This document shows, piece by piece, positions 50,842-64,000 of a DNA stretch of 64,000 nt. The translations under genes and the position numbers were made by a program. The DNA comes from Pseudomonadota bacterium (GTDB lineage Bacteria; Desulfobacterota; Desulfobacteria; Desulfobacterales; RPRI01), in contig JAHIFE010000189.1 in assembly GCA_018901125.1 (NCBI GenBank), forward strand, positions 1 to 64,000, read 5' to 3'. The notes beneath the pieces were generated by a model. It saw only the letters and a list, made by a program, of their open reading frames with translations. It did no database searches and had not been told where the DNA came from. How positions within the stretch are numbered: position 1 is the first letter of the stretch; each line of letters opens with the position of its first letter.

Positions 50842-52179
50842 ATGCAAAAAAACGCGCGTTCTATAAGACGTGGCGGAATTCCCAGAAAAGCCATGAAAAT
50901 TCCTGACTATTCGGCAATTCAATCAGAAAACAATCTAACCGAGCACAATGAACTTGATGAACCTCCGTCGCTGTCTCTTGCTTCAGATGGTTTTCTAAAT
51001 CACGTTCAATCAGGAGAATTGCTTCCCGTTCGTCCGGTTAAACGCCCTCCCTCACGCATTTTAAGAAAACAGTTTATTTTTCGTGCAACCCCTGCCGAAT
51101 GGAACGACTGGCAGTGGCAACTTAGAAATCGCATCCAGAATTATGATACTCTTTCAACAATCTTAACGCTTTCTGAAGAAGAGACAGATGCCGTTAAAAC
51201 AAACGGTGATAATTTGCCTCTTTCCATTACTCCTTATTATGCAAGTCTTCTTGATAAGAACAATCCCATGCACCCGCTGCGACGTGCCGTTGTTCCTGTC
51301 AGAGCTGAACTTTGCAGGTCTTTCGGAGAAGCCGAAGACCCTCTTGGAGAAGATGCCGACAGTCCTGTTCCGGGTCTTGTGCATCGTTATCCTGACCGTG
51401 TATTGTTTTTAGTAACCGATTTTTGTTCTACCAACTGCCGCTACTGTACAAGATCAAGAATGGTAGGCCGGTCGTCGGCATCTCATGGCGGTGTGGCAAA
51501 CTGGGAAAAGGCGCTTGCTTATATTGAAGCGAACACAGGCATAAGAGATGTGTTGATTTCCGGCGGTGATCCGCTTACCCTTGGCGATGATGCTCTGGAA
51601 TGGCTTCTTTCACGTCTTTGCCGTATTTCGCATCTTGATATTGTTCGCATTGGAACAAAGGTACCTGTGGTTCTGCCTCAGCGTATCACTTCCAAATTAG
51701 TCAGAATGCTGAAGCGATATCACCCCTTGTGGATAAATATCCATTTCATGCACCCTGAGGAGGTTACGCCTGAAACCAGTACTGCCTGCACAAGGCTTGC
51801 CGATGCCGGAATACCTCTTGGAAGCCAGACTGTTCTTCTTAAAGGTATTAATGATGATGTGGATACAATGAAAGAACTTTACCACAGGCTTCTAAAAATC
51901 AGGGTGCGCCCCTATTATCTGTATCAGTGCGATCCTATTCTCGGCTCCGCGCACTTCAGGACGTCTGTTGAAAAAGGACTTGAAATCATAAAAGGCCTCA
52001 GAGGACACACATCCGGTCTGGCCGTACCTAATTTTGTTATTGACGCTCCCGGCGGCGGTGGTAAAATCCCCCTTCTGCCCGAATATGTTTTAGGGCGCTA
52101 CGGAGACGAAATTCTTCTGAAAAATTATGAAGATCTTATCTTCCGGTATCCTGACTCATCACTAAAAAGACGTTTTTAA
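50842..52179 (+). CDS. kamA: KamA-family lysine 2,3-aminomutase-like radical SAM protein
   Basis: VTDFCSTNCRYCTRSRMVG; ISGGDPLTLGDDALEWLL; NFVIDAPGGGGKIPLLPEYV. Confidence 0.9.
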   Translation: MQKNARSIRRGGIPRKAMKIPDYSAIQSENNLTEHNELDEPPSLSLASDGFLNHVQSGELLPVRPVKRPPSRILRKQFIFRATPAEWNDWQWQLRNRIQNYDTLSTILTLSEEETDAVKTNGDNLPLSITPYYASLLDKNNPMHPLRRAVVPVRAELCRSFGEAEDPLGEDADSPVPGLVHRYPDRVLFLVTDFCSTNCRYCTRSRMVGRSSASHGGVANWEKALAYIEANTGIRDVLISGGDPLTLGDDALEWLLSRLCRISHLDIVRIGTKVPVVLPQRITSKLVRMLKRYHPLWINIHFMHPEEVTPETSTACTRLADAGIPLGSQTVLLKGINDDVDTMKELYHRLLKIRVRPYYLYQCDPILGSAHFRTSVEKGLEIIKGLRGHTSGLAVPNFVIDAPGGGGKIPLLPEYVLGRYGDEILLKNYEDLIFRYPDSSLKRRF

Positions 52180-52193
52180 AAAGAAGAGGATTA

Positions 52194-53201
52194 ATGGTTG
52201 TCGGAATTACATACGATCTGCGCAATGAATATATTGCCATGGGTTTCAGCGAGGAAGAAGCTGCCGAGTTCGACAGCGAAGAAACCATAGATGCCATCGA
52301 AAAAGCCCTATCCGATCTTGGTTATAAAACAGAAAGGATAGGGCATATTAAAAATCTTGTTAAATATCTTTGTGAAGGCAGACGGTGGGATATTGTATTT
52401 AATATTGCCGAAGGCTGTTTTGGAGCAGGAAGAGAAGCACAGATTCCGGCAATTCTGGACGCCTATAAAATTGCTTACACATTTTCCGATCCCTTAGTCT
52501 TAAGCCTTACCCTTAACAAGGCTGTTACAAAACTTATTGTACAAAATCTGGGAATAGCGACTCCTGCTTTTGCCCTTGTGGAAAAATTATCGGATATCGA
52601 CTCCATTTCTCTTCCTTTTCCCCTGTTTGTCAAACCTGTTGCGGAAGGAACCGGCAAAGGAATAAGCGCTGCTTCAAAAACAACTAATAAAGAGGATCTA
52701 TATAAAGTATGTCTTGATCTTCTTGAAAGGTTTAAACAACCGGCTTTGGTTGAAACGCACCTTCCGGGACGCGAATTTACCGTTGGAATTATCGGCACGG
52801 GGGAAAAAGCCAGAGTTGCCGGAGTTATAGAAGTTCTTCTTAATGAGCAAGCTGAAGGAGATTCCTATTCCTATATCAACAAGAAAAAATATGAAGAGCT
52901 TGTTTCTTATCGTCTGGCAGATGATAAAATGGCCCGTGATGCGGCAAAAGTAGCTCTTGACGCCTGGATAGGGCTCAAATGCCTTGATGCCGGAAGAATA
53001 GATATAAGATCGGATGTAAACGGGCGCCCCAATTTCATAGAGGTTAACCCTCTTGCGGGACTGCATCCCATACATTCCGATCTTCCGATCCTGTGCAGAT
53101 TGTCCGGTATCAGTTATAAAGAACTTATTGATGAAATAATGAAATCCGCGTTAAGCAGGTATCCAGCTTTAATACAGTCAAATCAGGATAATATCTTATG
53201 A
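52194..53201 (+). CDS. D-Ala-D-Ala ligase-like ATP-grasp protein 1
   Basis: PLFVKPVAEGTGKGIS; AGRIDIRSDVNGRPNFIEVNPLAGLHP. Confidence 0.85.
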   Translation: MVVGITYDLRNEYIAMGFSEEEAAEFDSEETIDAIEKALSDLGYKTERIGHIKNLVKYLCEGRRWDIVFNIAEGCFGAGREAQIPAILDAYKIAYTFSDPLVLSLTLNKAVTKLIVQNLGIATPAFALVEKLSDIDSISLPFPLFVKPVAEGTGKGISAASKTTNKEDLYKVCLDLLERFKQPALVETHLPGREFTVGIIGTGEKARVAGVIEVLLNEQAEGDSYSYINKKKYEELVSYRLADDKMARDAAKVALDAWIGLKCLDAGRIDIRSDVNGRPNFIEVNPLAGLHPIHSDLPILCRLSGISYKELIDEIMKSALSRYPALIQSNQDNIL

Positions 53202-54178
53202 AAAAAACAGTCGGCATCTTACATGCCGACATTTCGGATAAAGCGGATGAAGATGAAAAGGATGCTCTCATACAGCTGGAAGCTGTTTCAAAAGCGCTGA
53301 CACAGCTTGGCTTTGATCCTGTTTCCGTCAAATTTGATTTGAATCTGGAAGCTGTCGGCATCCGCCTTCAAAAGCTTAACCCCGCCTTTGTATTCAATCT
53401 TGTAGAATCCGTAAATGGCTGTGGGAGCCTGATACATCTTGCTCCTTCATTTCTTGATTATCTTAAGATTGTCTACACAGGATCTAAAACACAAGCCATG
53501 TTTTTAACTTCAAACAAGCTTTTAGGCAAAGATTATCTTGCAGCAAATGACATAAATACTTCCAAAGCCTATTGCCTTTCTACTTTAAAAAAAGAAACCT
53601 CTGTTAACGGTCGGTTTATAATAAAGTCCGTCTGGGAACATGCATCAATAGGAATGAGCCAGGATTCGGTTGTTTATGTAAAAAGTGCTTCCGAACTAAT
53701 TGCAAAGCTTGAAAGATTCAAAAGCAGTATGAGCGGGGATTTTTTTTGCGAAGAATATATAGACGGGCGTGAATTTAATATTGCATTACTTTCCGGCCCG
53801 GAGGGGGTTGAAGTACTTCCGCCTGCAGAAATTCTTTTTACTGACTATCCTTCCGACAAACTTAAAATAGTTGATTACAGCGCAAAATGGAAGACTGATT
53901 CATTTGAATATCTTAATACAAACAGAACTTTTAATTTTACATCTGATGACAGTTATTTAATTGAATCTCTTAAAATAATTTCTAAAGAGTGCTGGGACTT
54001 ATTTGGCCTTAAAGGATATGCCAGGGTTGATTTCAGAATCGACGAATCCGGAAGACCATGGGTTCTTGAAATAAACGCAAATCCCTGCATCTCACCTGAC
54101 AGCGGATTTGCTGCCGCATCTAAAATGATCGGACTCGCTTTTCCTGAGATTATCAAAAGAATAATTGAAGATATTTGA
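53198..54178 (+). CDS. D-Ala-D-Ala ligase-like ATP-grasp protein 2
   Basis: FIIKSVWEHASIGMSQDSVV; YARVDFRIDESGRPWVLEINANPCISPDSGF; 4-bp overlap with the preceding gene. Confidence 0.85.
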   Translation: MKKTVGILHADISDKADEDEKDALIQLEAVSKALTQLGFDPVSVKFDLNLEAVGIRLQKLNPAFVFNLVESVNGCGSLIHLAPSFLDYLKIVYTGSKTQAMFLTSNKLLGKDYLAANDINTSKAYCLSTLKKETSVNGRFIIKSVWEHASIGMSQDSVVYVKSASELIAKLERFKSSMSGDFFCEEYIDGREFNIALLSGPEGVEVLPPAEILFTDYPSDKLKIVDYSAKWKTDSFEYLNTNRTFNFTSDDSYLIESLKIISKECWDLFGLKGYARVDFRIDESGRPWVLEINANPCISPDSGFAAASKMIGLAFPEIIKRIIEDI

Positions 54179-54204
54179 TTATTTAGTTACATGGAGACCA
54201 TGAT

Positions 54205-54720
54205 TTGGCAAGCACAGGAAAAAAAATTGACTCCATTAATAATTTAACTTTTCGCGAAATCCCCTTAGAAGATGACCCCGAAAAAATTGGGGCAATAGTC
54301 AGAAAAACGGAGTTTTTCTCGGAAAGTGAGATTGAAATTGCAATAGAGCTTGTAAAGGAAAGACTTTTAAAAGATATTCAAAGCGGATATTATTTTTTAT
54401 TTGCAGAAAGCAGTGAAAAGCTTATAGGTTATACCTGCTTTGGCCCCATTCCAGGCACCCAGTCAAGTTATGACCTTTACTGGATCGTTATCGATAACAG
54501 CTTTCAGGGGCATGGAATAGGCAAGCTTCTTAACACAATGACCGAAGATATAATCAGAGAAATGGGCGGGTCAAGGATTTATGCCGAAACATCCTCAAGG
54601 CCCCAATATGAACCAACCCGTGCTTTTTATCGTAACGCCGGATATAACGAGGCTGCATATCTGGAGGATTTTTACGCTCCTTCCGATGGAAAAATGATTT
54701 TTGTTAAAAGGATTATTTAA
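54205..54720 (+). CDS. GNAT-family acetyltransferase
   Basis: VIDNSFQGHGIGKLLNTMTEDI acetyl-CoA motif; RAFYRNAGYNEAAYLEDFY. Confidence 0.88.
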   Translation: MASTGKKIDSINNLTFREIPLEDDPEKIGAIVRKTEFFSESEIEIAIELVKERLLKDIQSGYYFLFAESSEKLIGYTCFGPIPGTQSSYDLYWIVIDNSFQGHGIGKLLNTMTEDIIREMGGSRIYAETSSRPQYEPTRAFYRNAGYNEAAYLEDFYAPSDGKMIFVKRII

Positions 54721-56190: not shown

Positions 56191-57501
56191 TTATCGTTTG
56201 TCTTTCTTCAGTTTATATTTAATGTCCTGCTTGACTAATGTCTCGAGAGAGGCATCAAGATAGGCTTTTTGACAATCCACCGTATCTATATTCCCATCCC
56301 GCAAAAACTTCATATACCTGCATCCTCCGAAACAAAGAGGCAGATACTCACACCCGGTGCAGTTCTCATTTTTCCAGATACCAAGATTATAAACTGAGAC
56401 ATAATCTCTTGCTCCCGTCAGAAGATCTCCTACCTCATAGCCCTTCTTGCCGATAAAGCCCGGACATTTGTATATAACGCCGTTGAAATTAACCACATAG
56501 GAGTCGGCAGACTCTACCATGCAGGTCATAGGCATCAGTTTTTGTGTATTGTATCCTCTTTTCAAAATCTCTTCCCGCAAGTACGCGGCAATGCCCGACA
56601 GCCAAGGCTCATTGATGGATGCGCAGCCGCCCATAGAGTCGGGAGGAGCAAATTCACCTTCAGGCTGTTTTGTCACGGGGTCGAACTTCACTGTGGCAAT
56701 CTTATCCGTAGTGAGCCCTTCTGTTGTGAGATAATTGAGGAGCAATGGGAATTTTTCATAGTTGTTCCTTGTATAATTTCCTCCTATGCCTATTTTTGCA
56801 ATATCACAGGTTTCCTTGATGTTTTTGATGAGGGTATCAAAGCTGCCGGCGCCCGATTTAAAAGGACGGGATTGATTATGTGTCTCGGCCGGGCCGTCCA
56901 AACATATCTTCACCCCTTGAAGCCCGAACGCAATCAGCTCCTCTGCTGTCTTTTTTGTAAAAAGAGAACCGTTGGAAACAAGAGTAAAACCGTATGAGGC
57001 GCCCCTGCTTTCGGTGAATGCTTTAAGGGAACGGGAAATATATTTAATGAGTCCTATGCTCAAAAGAGGCTCTCCTCCGTAAAAATCTATGAGGAGAGAT
57101 TTTTTATGGAGTGGAAAATTATTTTTGATGAAATCTACGAGCTGATCCGCAGTTTCGTCCGACATGTAAAGTTTCCCCTTCATGCCCCCTTCGTAACAGT
57201 ATGTGCAGGCGAAGTTGCAGTCCAGATTGAGAACAACCATGATATTCAACCCGGTTTTTTTTGCATTAATTTCATCAAAAAAACCAAGCGCCGCAAGTTT
57301 TTCCTCATCGCTATCATGAACTATCATGCCGAGTTTTGATAGCAGGGCCTCATCGGAAGAGGATAGCGCCTCGTTATTTTCTATTGCATGATAGGTCTTT
57401 TTTTTAAGAAGTATCTTTGACATCTTCAGTGTGGAAAAAAGAAGAAGATGATCGGGGCTTTCTTCGTAAGGATATGCCTTAAGATAGTTGGAAAGCTGCA
57501 T
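56191..57501 (-). CDS. radical SAM/SPASM peptide maturase
   Basis: NLDCNFACTYCYEGG (CxxxCxxC); FYGGEPLLS; SPASM-type C-terminal Cys cluster CTGCEYLPLCFGGCRYMKF...DCQKAYLD. Confidence 0.88.
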   Translation of the reverse strand: MQLSNYLKAYPYEESPDHLLLFSTLKMSKILLKKKTYHAIENNEALSSSDEALLSKLGMIVHDSDEEKLAALGFFDEINAKKTGLNIMVVLNLDCNFACTYCYEGGMKGKLYMSDETADQLVDFIKNNFPLHKKSLLIDFYGGEPLLSIGLIKYISRSLKAFTESRGASYGFTLVSNGSLFTKKTAEELIAFGLQGVKICLDGPAETHNQSRPFKSGAGSFDTLIKNIKETCDIAKIGIGGNYTRNNYEKFPLLLNYLTTEGLTTDKIATVKFDPVTKQPEGEFAPPDSMGGCASINEPWLSGIAAYLREEILKRGYNTQKLMPMTCMVESADSYVVNFNGVIYKCPGFIGKKGYEVGDLLTGARDYVSVYNLGIWKNENCTGCEYLPLCFGGCRYMKFLRDGNIDTVDCQKAYLDASLETLVKQDIKYKLKKDKR

Positions 57502-57518
57502 AATATTTACATATGGTT

Positions 57519-57545
57519 TTAAAAAAGGGGAGTCGTGCTCCCCTT
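57519..57545 (-). terminator. terminator/attenuator hairpin between precursor peptide and radical SAM gene
   Basis: On the minus strand: AAGGGGAG-CACGA-CTCCCCTT followed by TTTT; arms 57538-57545 and 57525-57532. Confidence 0.7.
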
Positions 57546-57559
57546 CCGGTTCAGATTAT

Positions 57560-57682
57560 TCATCTATAAGGAGTTAGTGGACCCCAGCAACACATACCAT
57601 AGGCGTCTGCCATATCATTTGTATCAATGCCTTCATCAAGTACTGTGATTTCTTCTTTACTTTCTTTTTTTTCTTCTACCAT
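57560..57682 (-). CDS. candidate RiPP precursor peptide (40 aa), not in the supplied ORF track
   Basis: ATG at 57682 with AAGGAGGGGGG upstream: MVEEKKESKEEITVLDEGIDTNDMADAYGMCCWGPLTPYR*. Acidic/lysine leader, compact CCWGP tail, directly upstream of the maturase. Confidence 0.78.
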   Translation of the reverse strand: MVEEKKESKEEITVLDEGIDTNDMADAYGMCCWGPLTPYR

Positions 57683-58104
57683 ACCGTGCCCCCCTCCTTT
57701 TTTGGTTGCTGTTTAAGTTACTTGTTAGTCTTTTTCTATTTGTAACCTTTACTAACACAGCGAGCAAAAAACATACCATGCATTCCGAAAATGAGCAGTT
57801 ATGGTTTAATGATTTAATGATGTATTATACAATATACTGAATTGATAATAAATATAAAATATTCAATTATTAGTTTTATTAGGTATACAGTAACACTTAT
57901 CAATTAAAATAATTGCGATACATCACATAACGTCAAAAATATACCATTTTTTGTCAATCTTTTGACAAATTTTGTATAAATCGACTATCCCTGTTCAAAC
58001 TGTTTTAAAAAAATACATACCTTAGTTTGCCAAAATCCGGGCGTCGAAGTTGGAGGCTACATTGGTAATGATGTTTAATAGTGAAAAACAGATACACAAC
58101 AATA

Positions 58105-60069
58105 TTAAAAAGAGAACCGTAATCCGGCCTCAACCCATCTTTCAGGGTTTTGAATATCGCCAAAGACATATTGGGAACCGTTAAAGATATTGTGGGCCGT
58201 AAGAAATACATCCGTGGCAATATTTTCATTGGAATAAATATTCTTTTTGAGGTTAAAGTCCCAGATGAAATCATCGTAACTTGCTCCTGATGCTGAAGCA
58301 AGGTCCCACCATACATAGTGGCCGTATATCTGAGCACGGAAGGATTTTCTGTCGTCGTATTTTAACCCGATATTCCAGGTGTAAATTCCTGTAGCTCCTT
58401 CCTCGGTGGCAGGATTTATATCAACATATGCAAACCCTGTCCTAAGTGACAGATTGTACATGGAAATTGTTTCGGTTTCAAGCTCAATCCCTTGCCTCCT
58501 GCTTGTTCCGGTATTGATTATAAGATCATTAAAGGCGGGAGCTCCTCCTGCGGATGCCTCCTTTTTCAGGATATCTTTTATTTCATGGTGGAACACTGTG
58601 GCCTTGGCCCAGAGGTACCTTAAAGCGGTTGATTCTACCCCTGCCTGGTATGACCAGACTTTTTCAGGCTTAAGGGACGAATTCGGATCAAGGAACAATC
58701 CTCCCCCTGAGGTCCAGGAGAGAGGGGGAATGGTAAAGCCCCTTGCCACGGAAGCCCTTGCAATTGAATCCTCACCAAGCTGGTACGCGATTCCCAAAGA
58801 AGGGCTGGTAAAGGAGCCGGTAATGCTGTTATGATCGTAACGGATGCCGGGTGTAATCGACAATCGGTCTATTACTATTGTGTCATTGGCATATACCGCC
58901 CATTGGTCAATGTCGGGGTATGTAGACAATGTTGCCGGAGCGCCCACCGATTGGAGATATGTCCCGGAGGTAAACGTCTGATCAAGCTTTACGTTGTCGG
59001 CATCTACGCCGAATATCACGGTATGCTCTCCGTGAGCCCATACGAGTTTACCGCTTCCTCCCGTAGTTTTCTCATCATAAAGGCTATCTGAAAATAATTC
59101 CCCGGATGTTCCACGGATTCCCAGTCCTAATGCGTTATTCATTATATCGATTCTTTGCTTGAAGTGATGGAAGGATATATTTAAGTTAAGTTCACTTGCG
59201 AGAGAAGCATCAAGGGAGGCAGTTGCAAAAAAGGTGCGGCTTGTCCCGCTCGACCTTAAATCACCACTCGAAAAATTGCCGAGCCCGGTTTTCGGATCGC
59301 TGTAACCCATGCTCAGGCCTAGGGCCATATCTTCTGAAATGGGGATGTGGAACTTTGAATAAAGGCTATGATTGTTAAAATCTCTTGAAGATATCTGACC
59401 TTCGGAATATTGTCTGCCGGCATATAGATAATACCCCACAGTCTTTTCTTTTCCCAAGATCTCAGCTCTGTAATCCTGCGTATTTTTCTCACCATAAGAG
59501 ACGCTTAAAGAACCGGCAGGTTTTGAATCGGTTCCAGCCGTTTTAGTGATGATGTTGACAACACCGCCCAGAGCTGAACCCCATACCGATGATGCCGGCC
59601 CTTTTATGACCTCTATGCGATCGATGATACCTACTGGGATTGAATTGGTTTCAGGGGCCCCGCTACTCAGGAAATTCCAGGCCACCCCATCCATTTGGAC
59701 AAGAACATGTTTCGTCTCAGAACCCTGAATTTTAATCATGGAAGCAGAGCCGAAACTTCCTGTACCCTGGCTGAAAACTACAAAAAGGCCGGGTATCCTG
59801 TTAAGGACCTCTGCTACCGAATGGGCATTCATCTCCTCTATTTCTTTTGAAGTGACAACAGTTATATTTTCTGCAACCTGAGAGATGGGTTTAGGATGTC
59901 TGGTGGCCGAGACAACAAGATCCTTTTCCTTGTAAAACATGCGGAGAACTTCCATTTCTTCTTGAGACTGGGCGGCAAAAGCCCAGCACAAGGAGGTCGT
60001 TGCCAGGACAAAACAAAGCAAGAGGATGCATTGTCTATGTTTATAAAAATGACTATTTGAGAAATTCAT
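58105..60069 (-). CDS. TonB-dependent outer membrane receptor
   Basis: Signal peptide; plug domain (ITVVTSKEIEEMNAHSVAEVLNRIPG; IEVIKGPASSVWGSALGGVVNIITK); C-terminal F (GLRFSF). Confidence 0.93.
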   Translation of the reverse strand: MNFSNSHFYKHRQCILLLCFVLATTSLCWAFAAQSQEEMEVLRMFYKEKDLVVSATRHPKPISQVAENITVVTSKEIEEMNAHSVAEVLNRIPGLFVVFSQGTGSFGSASMIKIQGSETKHVLVQMDGVAWNFLSSGAPETNSIPVGIIDRIEVIKGPASSVWGSALGGVVNIITKTAGTDSKPAGSLSVSYGEKNTQDYRAEILGKEKTVGYYLYAGRQYSEGQISSRDFNNHSLYSKFHIPISEDMALGLSMGYSDPKTGLGNFSSGDLRSSGTSRTFFATASLDASLASELNLNISFHHFKQRIDIMNNALGLGIRGTSGELFSDSLYDEKTTGGSGKLVWAHGEHTVIFGVDADNVKLDQTFTSGTYLQSVGAPATLSTYPDIDQWAVYANDTIVIDRLSITPGIRYDHNSITGSFTSPSLGIAYQLGEDSIARASVARGFTIPPLSWTSGGGLFLDPNSSLKPEKVWSYQAGVESTALRYLWAKATVFHHEIKDILKKEASAGGAPAFNDLIINTGTSRRQGIELETETISMYNLSLRTGFAYVDINPATEEGATGIYTWNIGLKYDDRKSFRAQIYGHYVWWDLASASGASYDDFIWDFNLKKNIYSNENIATDVFLTAHNIFNGSQYVFGDIQNPERWVEAGLRFSF

Positions 60070-61129: not shown

Positions 61130-63448
61130 ATGAGGCTAAATTTACTAAAAACTTTGAATGAAAATTTTCGTATTAAGGTCTTTGCCGCTATTGGCTTTTT
61201 TATATTTGTTATATTTATTTCTTTTACTTCTCTCTTTATTCATCACCAGATTAAATCCCTGACAGATAACCTTATAAAAGATGGAAAAATACTATCAAGC
61301 GTTCTTGCTTACAACTCAAGGATTGGCGTATTTTCGGAAAATAAAGAGCTGCTCGAGGGTCCTGCTGAGGGAATTCTACAACAGGAAGGTGTTGTAGAAG
61401 TTTTGATATTTAATCTGGATGGGGAGCTGTTGAATAGTAAAAAAAGGTCCAGATTAAAATTATTAAAAAAATCAATTGAAAGAGATGAGCAGGAAAGACT
61501 TAAGATATTTAAGAAAATGAGAGAGTCTATTCCCCCGTTTTACCTTGAGGGTAATGGCTATATTGAATTCTGGGCACCCGTAATCTCAAGCTCCGGTCAC
61601 CTTGTGGAAGAATCTTTATTATTTATTAAGGATCCTCTTCAGAAAAATGACCGACCCATTGGATTTGTTAGTGTGACGATGGATAAGCAGATGCTTAATA
61701 AGCAGTTCAATGACATATTGATTAAGAGTATCCTGATGGGTATTCTCTTCCTGATGATTGGTTCCGTTGTAACATACTTAGTATTAAAGGGGATAACAAA
61801 ACCGCTTAACAGATTAACTGAAAGTGTTAAAATCTTTGGAATGGAAGGTGTAGTCGAGAAGGTGCCTGTTGAAACAGAGGATGAAATAGGAGAACTTGCG
61901 AAGGCTTTCAACAATATGGCTGAATCCTTAAAGAGAAGGGAAGAGGCACTACGCGAGAGCGAAACTCGCTATCGGACACTCTTTGAAAACATGGTAGAGG
62001 GATTCGCGTATTGCCGGATGCTTTTCGAGGGCAGCCAACCGAAGGACTTCGAATACCTCGTTGTCAACGAAGCATTCCAAACCCTGACGGAATTTAAGGA
62101 TGTGGTCGGGAAGAAGATCTCTGAGGTTATTCCTGGCATCCGTGAATCCGATCCCGAGTTGTTCGAGCGGTTTGCCCGGGTTGCGTTGACCGGCCAGTCC
62201 GAACGTTTCGAGTTTTATGTCACCGCCATGAACATGTGGTTTAATCTCTCGGTCTATTCTCCGATGAAGGAATATTTCGTAGTGGTGTTCGACGACATAA
62301 CCGAGCGCAAACGAACGGAAGAAGAACTTCTGAAAGCTAAGAAACTTGAATCCGTAGGGATTCTCGCTGGAGGCATAGCCCATGATTTCAATAATATACT
62401 GACAGCTATTTCAGGAAATATTTCTCTTGCCAAGACGTATATGGAGTCCGACAATAAGATATTTGATCTTCTGAGTGCGGCAGAACTTGCCTCTAAGAGA
62501 GCACAGGCACTTACAATGCAGTTACTGACTTTTGCCAAAGGGGGAACTCCGGTAAAGGAAGTTTCTTCAATTGCAAATATTCTAAAAGAATCTTCCCTCT
62601 TTGTACTGACCGGCTCAAAAGCGAGATGTGAGTTTTCGATAGCAGAAAATCTCTGGTCTGTTGAGGCCGATTCAGGGCAGATAAGCCAGGTAATCAATAA
62701 TATTGTTATAAATGCGAACCAGGCTATGCCGGAGGGAGGAGTCATACAGATTCGTGCCCGGAACGAAGAGATACAGGAGGGGCATGGACTGCCTGTTAAA
62801 CCGGGCAGATACATCGTGATCACCATCAAGGATCAGGGGGTGGGTATAGCTGAAAAGCACCTTTCCAAGATATTTGATCCTTATTTTTCAACAAAGCAGA
62901 CAGGGAGAGGCCTCGGACTTGCATCAACCTACTCTATCATCAAAAAGCACCACGGTCACATATCGGCAAACTCCTGTCAGGGTCGCGGAACCACTTTTTA
63001 CATCTACCTTCCGGCATCATACAAAGAAATTCCGGTAAAAGAAGAGCCAGCCCAGTTAACAGGAGAGGGCAAAATACTTATAATGGATGATGATAAATAT
63101 TTAACGGAAATAATGGGAGATATGTTGGAGATGCTGGGGTATGAAGCAGAGATAGCAAAGGATGGCGCTGAGGCGATTGCATTGTATAAAAAAGCCTGGG
63201 AATCGGGAAAACCCTATGATGCCGTCATTCTGGACCTGACCGTTCCCGGCAGTATGGGAGGAAAGGATGTTGTAAAGATATTGCTTGAGATAGATCCTGA
63301 AGTAAAAGCTGTTGTTTCAAGTGGCTACTCCGATGATCCGGTCATGTCAAATTTCCGTGAATATGGTTTCAAAGGCATGATGCCCAAGCCTTTTGATGTC
63401 AATGCATTGGGAAAAGTGTTAAATGATGTGATAAAAACGACAAGTTAG
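61130..63448 (+). CDS. hybrid sensor histidine kinase (HAMP-PAS-HisKA-HATPase-REC)
   Basis: Two TM segments; HAMP; PAS; GGIAHDFNNILTAISGN; GRGLGLASTYSI; C-terminal receiver ILIMDDDKYLTEI. Confidence 0.9.
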   Translation: MRLNLLKTLNENFRIKVFAAIGFFIFVIFISFTSLFIHHQIKSLTDNLIKDGKILSSVLAYNSRIGVFSENKELLEGPAEGILQQEGVVEVLIFNLDGELLNSKKRSRLKLLKKSIERDEQERLKIFKKMRESIPPFYLEGNGYIEFWAPVISSSGHLVEESLLFIKDPLQKNDRPIGFVSVTMDKQMLNKQFNDILIKSILMGILFLMIGSVVTYLVLKGITKPLNRLTESVKIFGMEGVVEKVPVETEDEIGELAKAFNNMAESLKRREEALRESETRYRTLFENMVEGFAYCRMLFEGSQPKDFEYLVVNEAFQTLTEFKDVVGKKISEVIPGIRESDPELFERFARVALTGQSERFEFYVTAMNMWFNLSVYSPMKEYFVVVFDDITERKRTEEELLKAKKLESVGILAGGIAHDFNNILTAISGNISLAKTYMESDNKIFDLLSAAELASKRAQALTMQLLTFAKGGTPVKEVSSIANILKESSLFVLTGSKARCEFSIAENLWSVEADSGQISQVINNIVINANQAMPEGGVIQIRARNEEIQEGHGLPVKPGRYIVITIKDQGVGIAEKHLSKIFDPYFSTKQTGRGLGLASTYSIIKKHHGHISANSCQGRGTTFYIYLPASYKEIPVKEEPAQLTGEGKILIMDDDKYLTEIMGDMLEMLGYEAEIAKDGAEAIALYKKAWESGKPYDAVILDLTVPGSMGGKDVVKILLEIDPEVKAVVSSGYSDDPVMSNFREYGFKGMMPKPFDVNALGKVLNDVIKTTS

Positions 63449-63464
63449 TAAATGAAGTCTGATT

Positions 63465-64000
63465 TTAACCTTCTGTCTCTTTCCGGCCAAAGGGAATGCC
63501 GAGCTTGCGCATTTTCGTCCGGAGCGTCGAAGGATTTATTTTCAGAAGCTTTGCTGCACCCTTTTCCCCGCCCACACGGCCACCGGTCATCTTCAGGGCA
63601 TTGGCAATCGTTTGTGAGGTCATTTGTTCCAGACTGAGGGTTTTTGCTCCATCGGTCACGGGAATCATGGCCGCTGTATTTGGGACGATATCGACAAGAT
63701 CGTTGAAGACCAGCGGTTGTTCCCTGCTGAGAATAAGGGCGCGTTCGATGGCGTTCTGGAGTTCCCGGACATTGCCGGGCCAGTTATAATGCATAAGTTT
63801 TTCGAGGGCACCGGGAGCAAGGGTGGGAATTTCCACAAAACCCATTTCCCGGGCCTTCTTCATCATGAAATATTGAACCAGGGCTGGAATATCGGCTCGC
63901 CGGTCACGAAGCGGCGGAATCACAATGGGAAAAACCCTGAGGCGAAAATAAAGATCCTCGCGGAACTTGCCCTCGGCCATCATGGCCTCCAGATTGCGGT
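63465..64000 (-). CDS. sigma-54-dependent transcriptional regulator, C-terminal part (runs off the right edge)
   Basis: EGKFREDLYFRLRVFPIVIPPLRDRRADIPALV; NWPGNVRELQNAIERA; Fis-type C-terminal HTH. Confidence 0.9.
   Translation of the reverse strand, partial: RNLEAMMAEGKFREDLYFRLRVFPIVIPPLRDRRADIPALVQYFMMKKAREMGFVEIPTLAPGALEKLMHYNWPGNVRELQNAIERALILSREQPLVFNDLVDIVPNTAAMIPVTDGAKTLSLEQMTSQTIANALKMTGGRVGGEKGAAKLLKINPSTLRTKMRKLGIPFGRKETEG

Follow-up and report, generated by a model that had tools for sequence, protein, structure and literature searches.

The window analysed here, a 64,000-nucleotide stretch of DNA from a Pseudomonadota bacterium, carries a short peptide gene, a radical SAM/SPASM maturase gene and, next to them, genes for a TonB-dependent receptor, a periplasmic binding protein and a histidine kinase. 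We interpret these genes as a geopeptide-type RiPP locus whose modified product is retrieved and sensed as a small ligand, a reading to which we assign a probability of about 0.6.

The precursor peptide is encoded on the minus strand at 57560..57682 and comprises 40 aa, with a leader that includes EEITVLDEG and a core that ends in CCWGPLTPYR; the full translation is MVEEKKESKEEITVLDEGIDTNDMADAYGMCCWGPLTPYR. A Shine-Dalgarno sequence, AAGGAGG (57693..57699, minus strand), lies 10 nt 5' of its ATG, and a gap of 58 bp separates the gene from the maturase, the ATG of which is at 57501. The sequence-only reading had proposed a 40-aa frame with AAGGAGG located 58 bp 5' of a radical SAM gene, and both its coordinates and its description are correct. 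The precursor is present in a single copy in its own genome (homologue profile, E 7e-16). Against the NCBIfam geopeptide precursor model TIGR04229 it obtains 15 bits (E 0.017) and does not reach the cut-off of 30, so that annotation by TIGR04229 would miss the peptide. Judged by its sequence, it is a member of a wider precursor family, outside TIGR04229 membership.

A frame this short, which also scores too low for the published precursor model, could have arisen by chance beside a maturase that works on another substrate. The comparative data led us to reject this explanation, which we consider hardly credible. A leader-plus-CC ORF was found 5' of 67 out of 82 maturase loci, which are partly redundant, compared to 19 of 1702 control windows (1.1%); two further precursors were found 1.7 kb 5' of maturases. 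Because this search pattern demanded CC in the upstream ORFs, independent profile tests were added. More specifically, a profile of 39 precursors was run against 396 genomes from the phylum (E<=1e-4). Of these genomes, 31 encode a maturase that exceeds the TIGR04280 cut-off, and the identical 31 hold a precursor homologue; most precursors of the 31 genomes are members of the profile, and more is learned from the lack of homologues in the remaining 365. The G285 precursor is outside the 39-sequence profile, yet was detected by it. Furthermore, nine held-out loci were drawn later, none of which contributed to the profile, and in 9/9 the best small-ORF match is a precursor just upstream of the maturase, each with CC. 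Loci L070-L077, the maturases of which are 26-32% identical and fall below the cut-off, were considered to represent another family and excluded. Because the same 31 of 396 genomes carry both genes, all nine held-out loci agree and the pattern is rare in control windows, the 40-aa ORF is not due to chance: precursor and maturase belong together. The earlier proposal of a RiPP precursor and its maturase is thus supported by a conserved small ORF with a conserved leader adjoining a modifying enzyme, and the homologous small ORF that it predicted beside family maturases is present at essentially every member. We infer that the peptide undergoes modification by the maturase.

Alignment of the 39 precursor homologues shows which parts of the peptide are kept. 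M1, C31 and C32 are invariant, and L15 and G18 are found in at least 90% of sequences. Across the family the leader EIxVLDEG, the Cys-Cys pair and a loose P-x-R end are retained, P and R being preferred at positions +7 and +9 relative to the first Cys, and the remainder of the tail drifts. CCWGP, by which the sequence-only reading had labelled the precursor, was accordingly ruled out as a family motif, as only CC is invariant. That reading had also named random drift of the CCWGPLTPYR tail across loci as evidence against it; CC and, loosely, P-x-R are maintained, and the rest of the tail does drift between loci. The core differs fast compared to the enzyme: CCWGPLTPYR in the window becomes CCGTALAPFR in L032, and the maturases are 81-82% identical. 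The aligned precursor cores have no conserved acceptor residue from which the bond could be identified. Even with the threshold relaxed to E<=1, TIGR04229 recovers only 15 of the 39 homologues. As a separate observation, L166 carries two near-identical precursors in tandem 5' of the maturase, with CCRTNQPRQN and CCRTNQPRQIVL, and G223:C114 likewise carries two precursors.

The maturase (56191..57501, minus strand, 436 aa) was identified by its match to TIGR04280, its invariant cysteines and a structure model. It scores 549.6 bits against the NCBIfam model TIGR04280, 'geopeptide radical SAM maturase', above the cut-off of 400 and over the full length (residues 1-430 on positions 1-428 of 428), which bears out the kinship with geopeptide-type SPASM maturases that the sequence-only reading had suggested. 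In Pfam it exceeds the cut-off for two families, Radical_SAM and Fer4_12. The radical SAM cluster motif CNFACTYC supplies C95, C99 and C102, and seven C-terminal cysteines (C327, C346, C381, C384, C390, C394 and C410) constitute the full SPASM set; the ten are invariant in an alignment of 46 relatives, in agreement with the CxxxCxxC motif and SPASM-type Cys cluster noted from the sequence. The predicted structure has a mean pLDDT of 91.3, and residues 1-81 of this model form a putative RRE-like fold, with three strands and helices in RRE order. The best structure match is the thioether-forming maturase CteB (PDB 5why and 5wgg, E 7e-23), which is also the top PDB match by sequence. Four relatives (L053, L055, L056 and L035) have a maturase that continues into a fused C-terminal domain of ~290 aa (about residues 430-726), entirely helical and with an invariant DDFID motif. 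This domain has no Pfam match and no significant PDB match (the best, at E 1.2, is to an isoprenoid-synthase-type fold and is not reliable), and is absent in the window's own genome. Directly 3' of the maturase of the closest relative lies a BrnT-type toxin gene of a toxin-antitoxin pair (L032 9521-9811, plus strand).

Upstream of the precursor, the minus strand encodes a dedicated TonB-dependent receptor of 654 aa (58105..60069) with Plug and beta-barrel domains, which is far under every named NCBIfam receptor cut-off. Diverging from it on the plus strand is the gene for a periplasmic binding protein of family PF04392 (60218..61120, 300 aa; 133.5 bits, cut-off 25.9); its own genome encodes just one other PF04392 protein. 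It is followed by a hybrid histidine kinase (61130..63448, plus strand, 772 aa) with an sCache_4-like sensor and HAMP, PAS, HisKA, HATPase and receiver domains. No ABC permease is found beside the PF04392 protein.

When neighbouring genes were clustered, most loci proved to encode a TonB-dependent receptor, a binding protein of family PF04392 and signalling proteins. Over more than 40 related loci, precursor and maturase are almost always accompanied by the receptor, the binding protein and a sensor kinase, and in 35 of 36 loci the next gene past the binding protein encodes a HATPase domain. The receptor is near every TIGR04280-type maturase with enough flank, the exceptions (L036 and L079) running into contig ends. 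Among the held-out loci it is present in 9/9, and the binding protein and kinase in 7/9, with little sequence past the receptor in the other two. Searching 30 genomes with the receptor at E<=1e-30 returned 27 matches, 25 of which adjoin a geopeptide maturase; nine maturase-free genomes gave no match at this threshold. Across the 396 genomes the receptor occurs in all 31 with a maturase and in four others (G096, G163, G087 and G154); G096 and G163 contain maturase relatives below the TIGR04280 cut-off, and the G087 receptor is at a contig end. In a Geobacter-like group the receptor gene is inverted yet keeps its position, so the linkage withstands this rearrangement. Maturase and receptor distances correlate with an r of 0.80, a value not corrected for species phylogeny. 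Judged by this gene linkage, the receptor, binding protein and kinase belong to the peptide locus, which is larger than the sequence-only reading stated. The linkage suggests that the peptide is released, retaken and sensed, and makes the peptide a candidate ligand of the receptor.

Two loci depart from this arrangement. In G301:C82 (L141 4996-10116) a triad of kinase, PF04392 protein and receptor is found with both peptide and maturase missing, and the sensing triad can thus exist without the peptide. In G153:C22 a paralogous cassette with no maturase holds an orphan precursor (G153:C22:98443-98526; L140 8444-8527) beside a receptor and binding protein; its core has CIC for CC, as expected if the enzyme needs CC. 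Separately, single in-frame TAG codons interrupt otherwise intact cassette genes, namely G440:C1:3452623-3453918 (L152) and those of the G301:C49 receptor and the G098:C1 PF04392 protein; these may be pseudogenes, sequence errors or cases of TAG read-through.

Such peptide-free triads would be in line with a peptide that stays inside the cell as a cofactor or regulator, for example of the kinase or receptor, with the receptor importing an unrelated substrate used jointly with the peptide. No exporter or leader peptidase is conserved downstream (the commonest family, the response regulator receiver domain, accounts for 8 of 86 genes) and no signal peptide is conserved across the 39 aligned precursors, so that secretion is unsupported, which also favours an intracellular role. 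We nevertheless think such a role improbable: the fast drift of the core is unlike that of a cofactor precursor, and in 31/31 genomes the receptor subfamily goes together with the peptide genes.

Other genes in the region were noted outside the cassette. At 50842-54720 on the plus strand, a lysine-2,3-aminomutase-like radical SAM protein, two ATP-grasp ligase-like proteins and a GNAT acetyltransferase are encoded in a row, possibly a small-molecule or osmolyte cluster; the GNAT identity was confirmed and the others were judged by eye. Just past the window (G000:C12:65321-68163; L139 5322-8164) are genes for a DUF1329 protein and then an AveC-like spirocyclase-family protein.

Expression signals were found on both sides of the precursor gene. 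Between precursor and maturase, a hairpin with a T-tract (57523..57547, minus strand; -16.3 kcal/mol, z -2.8) may act as a partial terminator or processing element. An intergenic hairpin was obtained in 16/42 loci under strict rules (0.34 expected) and in 28/50 under relaxed rules (1.5 expected). Such a recurrent hairpin fits a surplus of peptide over maturase, and would probably let the substrate peptide exceed the enzyme in amount. On the 5' side of the precursor is a tentative sigma-54-like -24/-12 site, TGGTATGTTTTTTGCT (57763..57778, minus strand; shuffle p 0.005), detected with a weight matrix built from the known consensus and unfitted to these loci; 8 of 52 loci have such a site at p<=0.02 (binomial 9e-6). 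A sigma-54 activator of 523 aa, tentatively a member of the locus, is encoded at 63465..64000 on the minus strand and extends past the window end (L139; G000:C12:60000-68410). The evidence for sigma-54 control of the locus is suggestive only. A scan for sigma-70 promoters gave no excess over shuffles.

From the conservation, co-occurrence, gene linkage, domain content and hairpin described above, we infer the chemistry, export, receptor ligand and regulation of the locus as follows. Leader recognition by an RRE and radical modification of the core are established for SPASM RiPP maturases. Here, the RRE-like N-terminal domain of the maturase would bind the leader motif EIxVLDEG, and the radical SAM cluster and two SPASM clusters would modify the core around the invariant Cys-Cys, most likely by forming a thioether cross-link. 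The product would probably leave the cell by a general route, and the dedicated TonB-dependent receptor would probably bring it back. The PF04392 protein may then relay a signal in the periplasm to the histidine kinase, which would tune the locus, perhaps through sigma-54. Retrieval and sensing are suggested by the combination of receptor, binding protein and kinase with no ABC permease.

The retrieved product could be a metallophore or a cell-cell signal. As a metallophore, the peptide would use its Cys pair, free or partly cross-linked, to bind a thiophilic metal (copper, for example) extracellularly, and would be recovered by the receptor. The dedicated receptor adjoining precursor and maturase, the invariant CC and a gene content like that of methanobactin operons (PMC3621798) argue for this role, which we hold possible although doubtful, given that an exporter gene is missing, that no metal-handling gene recurs nearby and that the two conserved potential metal ligands may be consumed in thioethers. 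As a signal, it would be a strain-specific pheromone detected by the receptor, binding protein and kinase. A core that drifts fast while the enzyme does not would suit strain specificity, and a sensor kinase with a permease-less binding protein fits sensing; however, entry through a TonB-dependent receptor would be unusual for a pheromone and release machinery is missing, and we regard this role as unlikely.

To all appearances, geopeptides are represented only by two database models; nothing relevant was found under the geopeptide family names in the literature searched, nor was a description of the combination of receptor, PF04392 protein and kinase. The maturase family is known as a database model; the precursor falls outside TIGR04229, and relative to the literature searched the receptor-sensor linkage is new. 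We propose, at somewhat less than even odds, that geopeptides are half of an undescribed retrieve-and-sense system comprising a radical-SAM-modified Cys-Cys peptide, its receptor and a binding protein/kinase reader. A receptor and sensor for the product would be the first concrete functional lead on geopeptides, one that is testable in culturable relatives of the producers, and the improved precursor alignment reaches peptides missed by the published model. Its genes occur in about 8% of the phylum genomes sampled, and MAGs with the labels Nitrospiraceae, Nitrospirae and Deferribacteres carry them too.

Compared to the NCBIfam geopeptide pair, the window locus is alike in a maturase above the TIGR04280 cut-off and in the leader-plus-CC layout and position of its precursor, and unlike in a precursor that obtains only half of the 30 bits demanded by TIGR04229. 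Furthermore, the two models contain no receptor, binding protein, kinase or hairpin, whereas the window locus does. The SCIFF/ranthipeptide maturase CteB (PDB 5wgg and 5why) shares the RRE-like domain, the radical SAM core and a SPASM domain with two auxiliary clusters, at 18-19% identity to the window maturase; CteB binds its leader through the RRE (PMC8326336). A SCIFF precursor contains six cysteines, the window core two adjacent ones. A thioether of ranthipeptide or sactipeptide type is likely by analogy, from enzyme similarity and the CC pair only. The nearest solved structures of the receptor are BtuB and ferric enterobactin receptors, with which it shares plug and barrel, the matches covering mainly its plug region.

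Methanobactin operons contain a TonB-dependent transporter, a precursor, maturation genes and regulators (PMC3621798), and in the window locus, too, a short precursor with Cys adjoins genes for a TonB-dependent receptor and regulators. Methanobactin maturation involves MbnB/MbnC, whereas a radical SAM protein is found here, which places the locus outside the MbnB/MbnC type; the common TonB-dependent receptor is a shared feature, not membership. Methanobactin operons also carry MATE exporters, of which the window locus has none, and some are regulated by FecI/FecR-like proteins in place of the binding protein and kinase found here. If our reading is true, the locus would represent a counterpart of methanobactin built on a radical SAM enzyme, or else a signalling peptide that enters via a TonB-dependent receptor.
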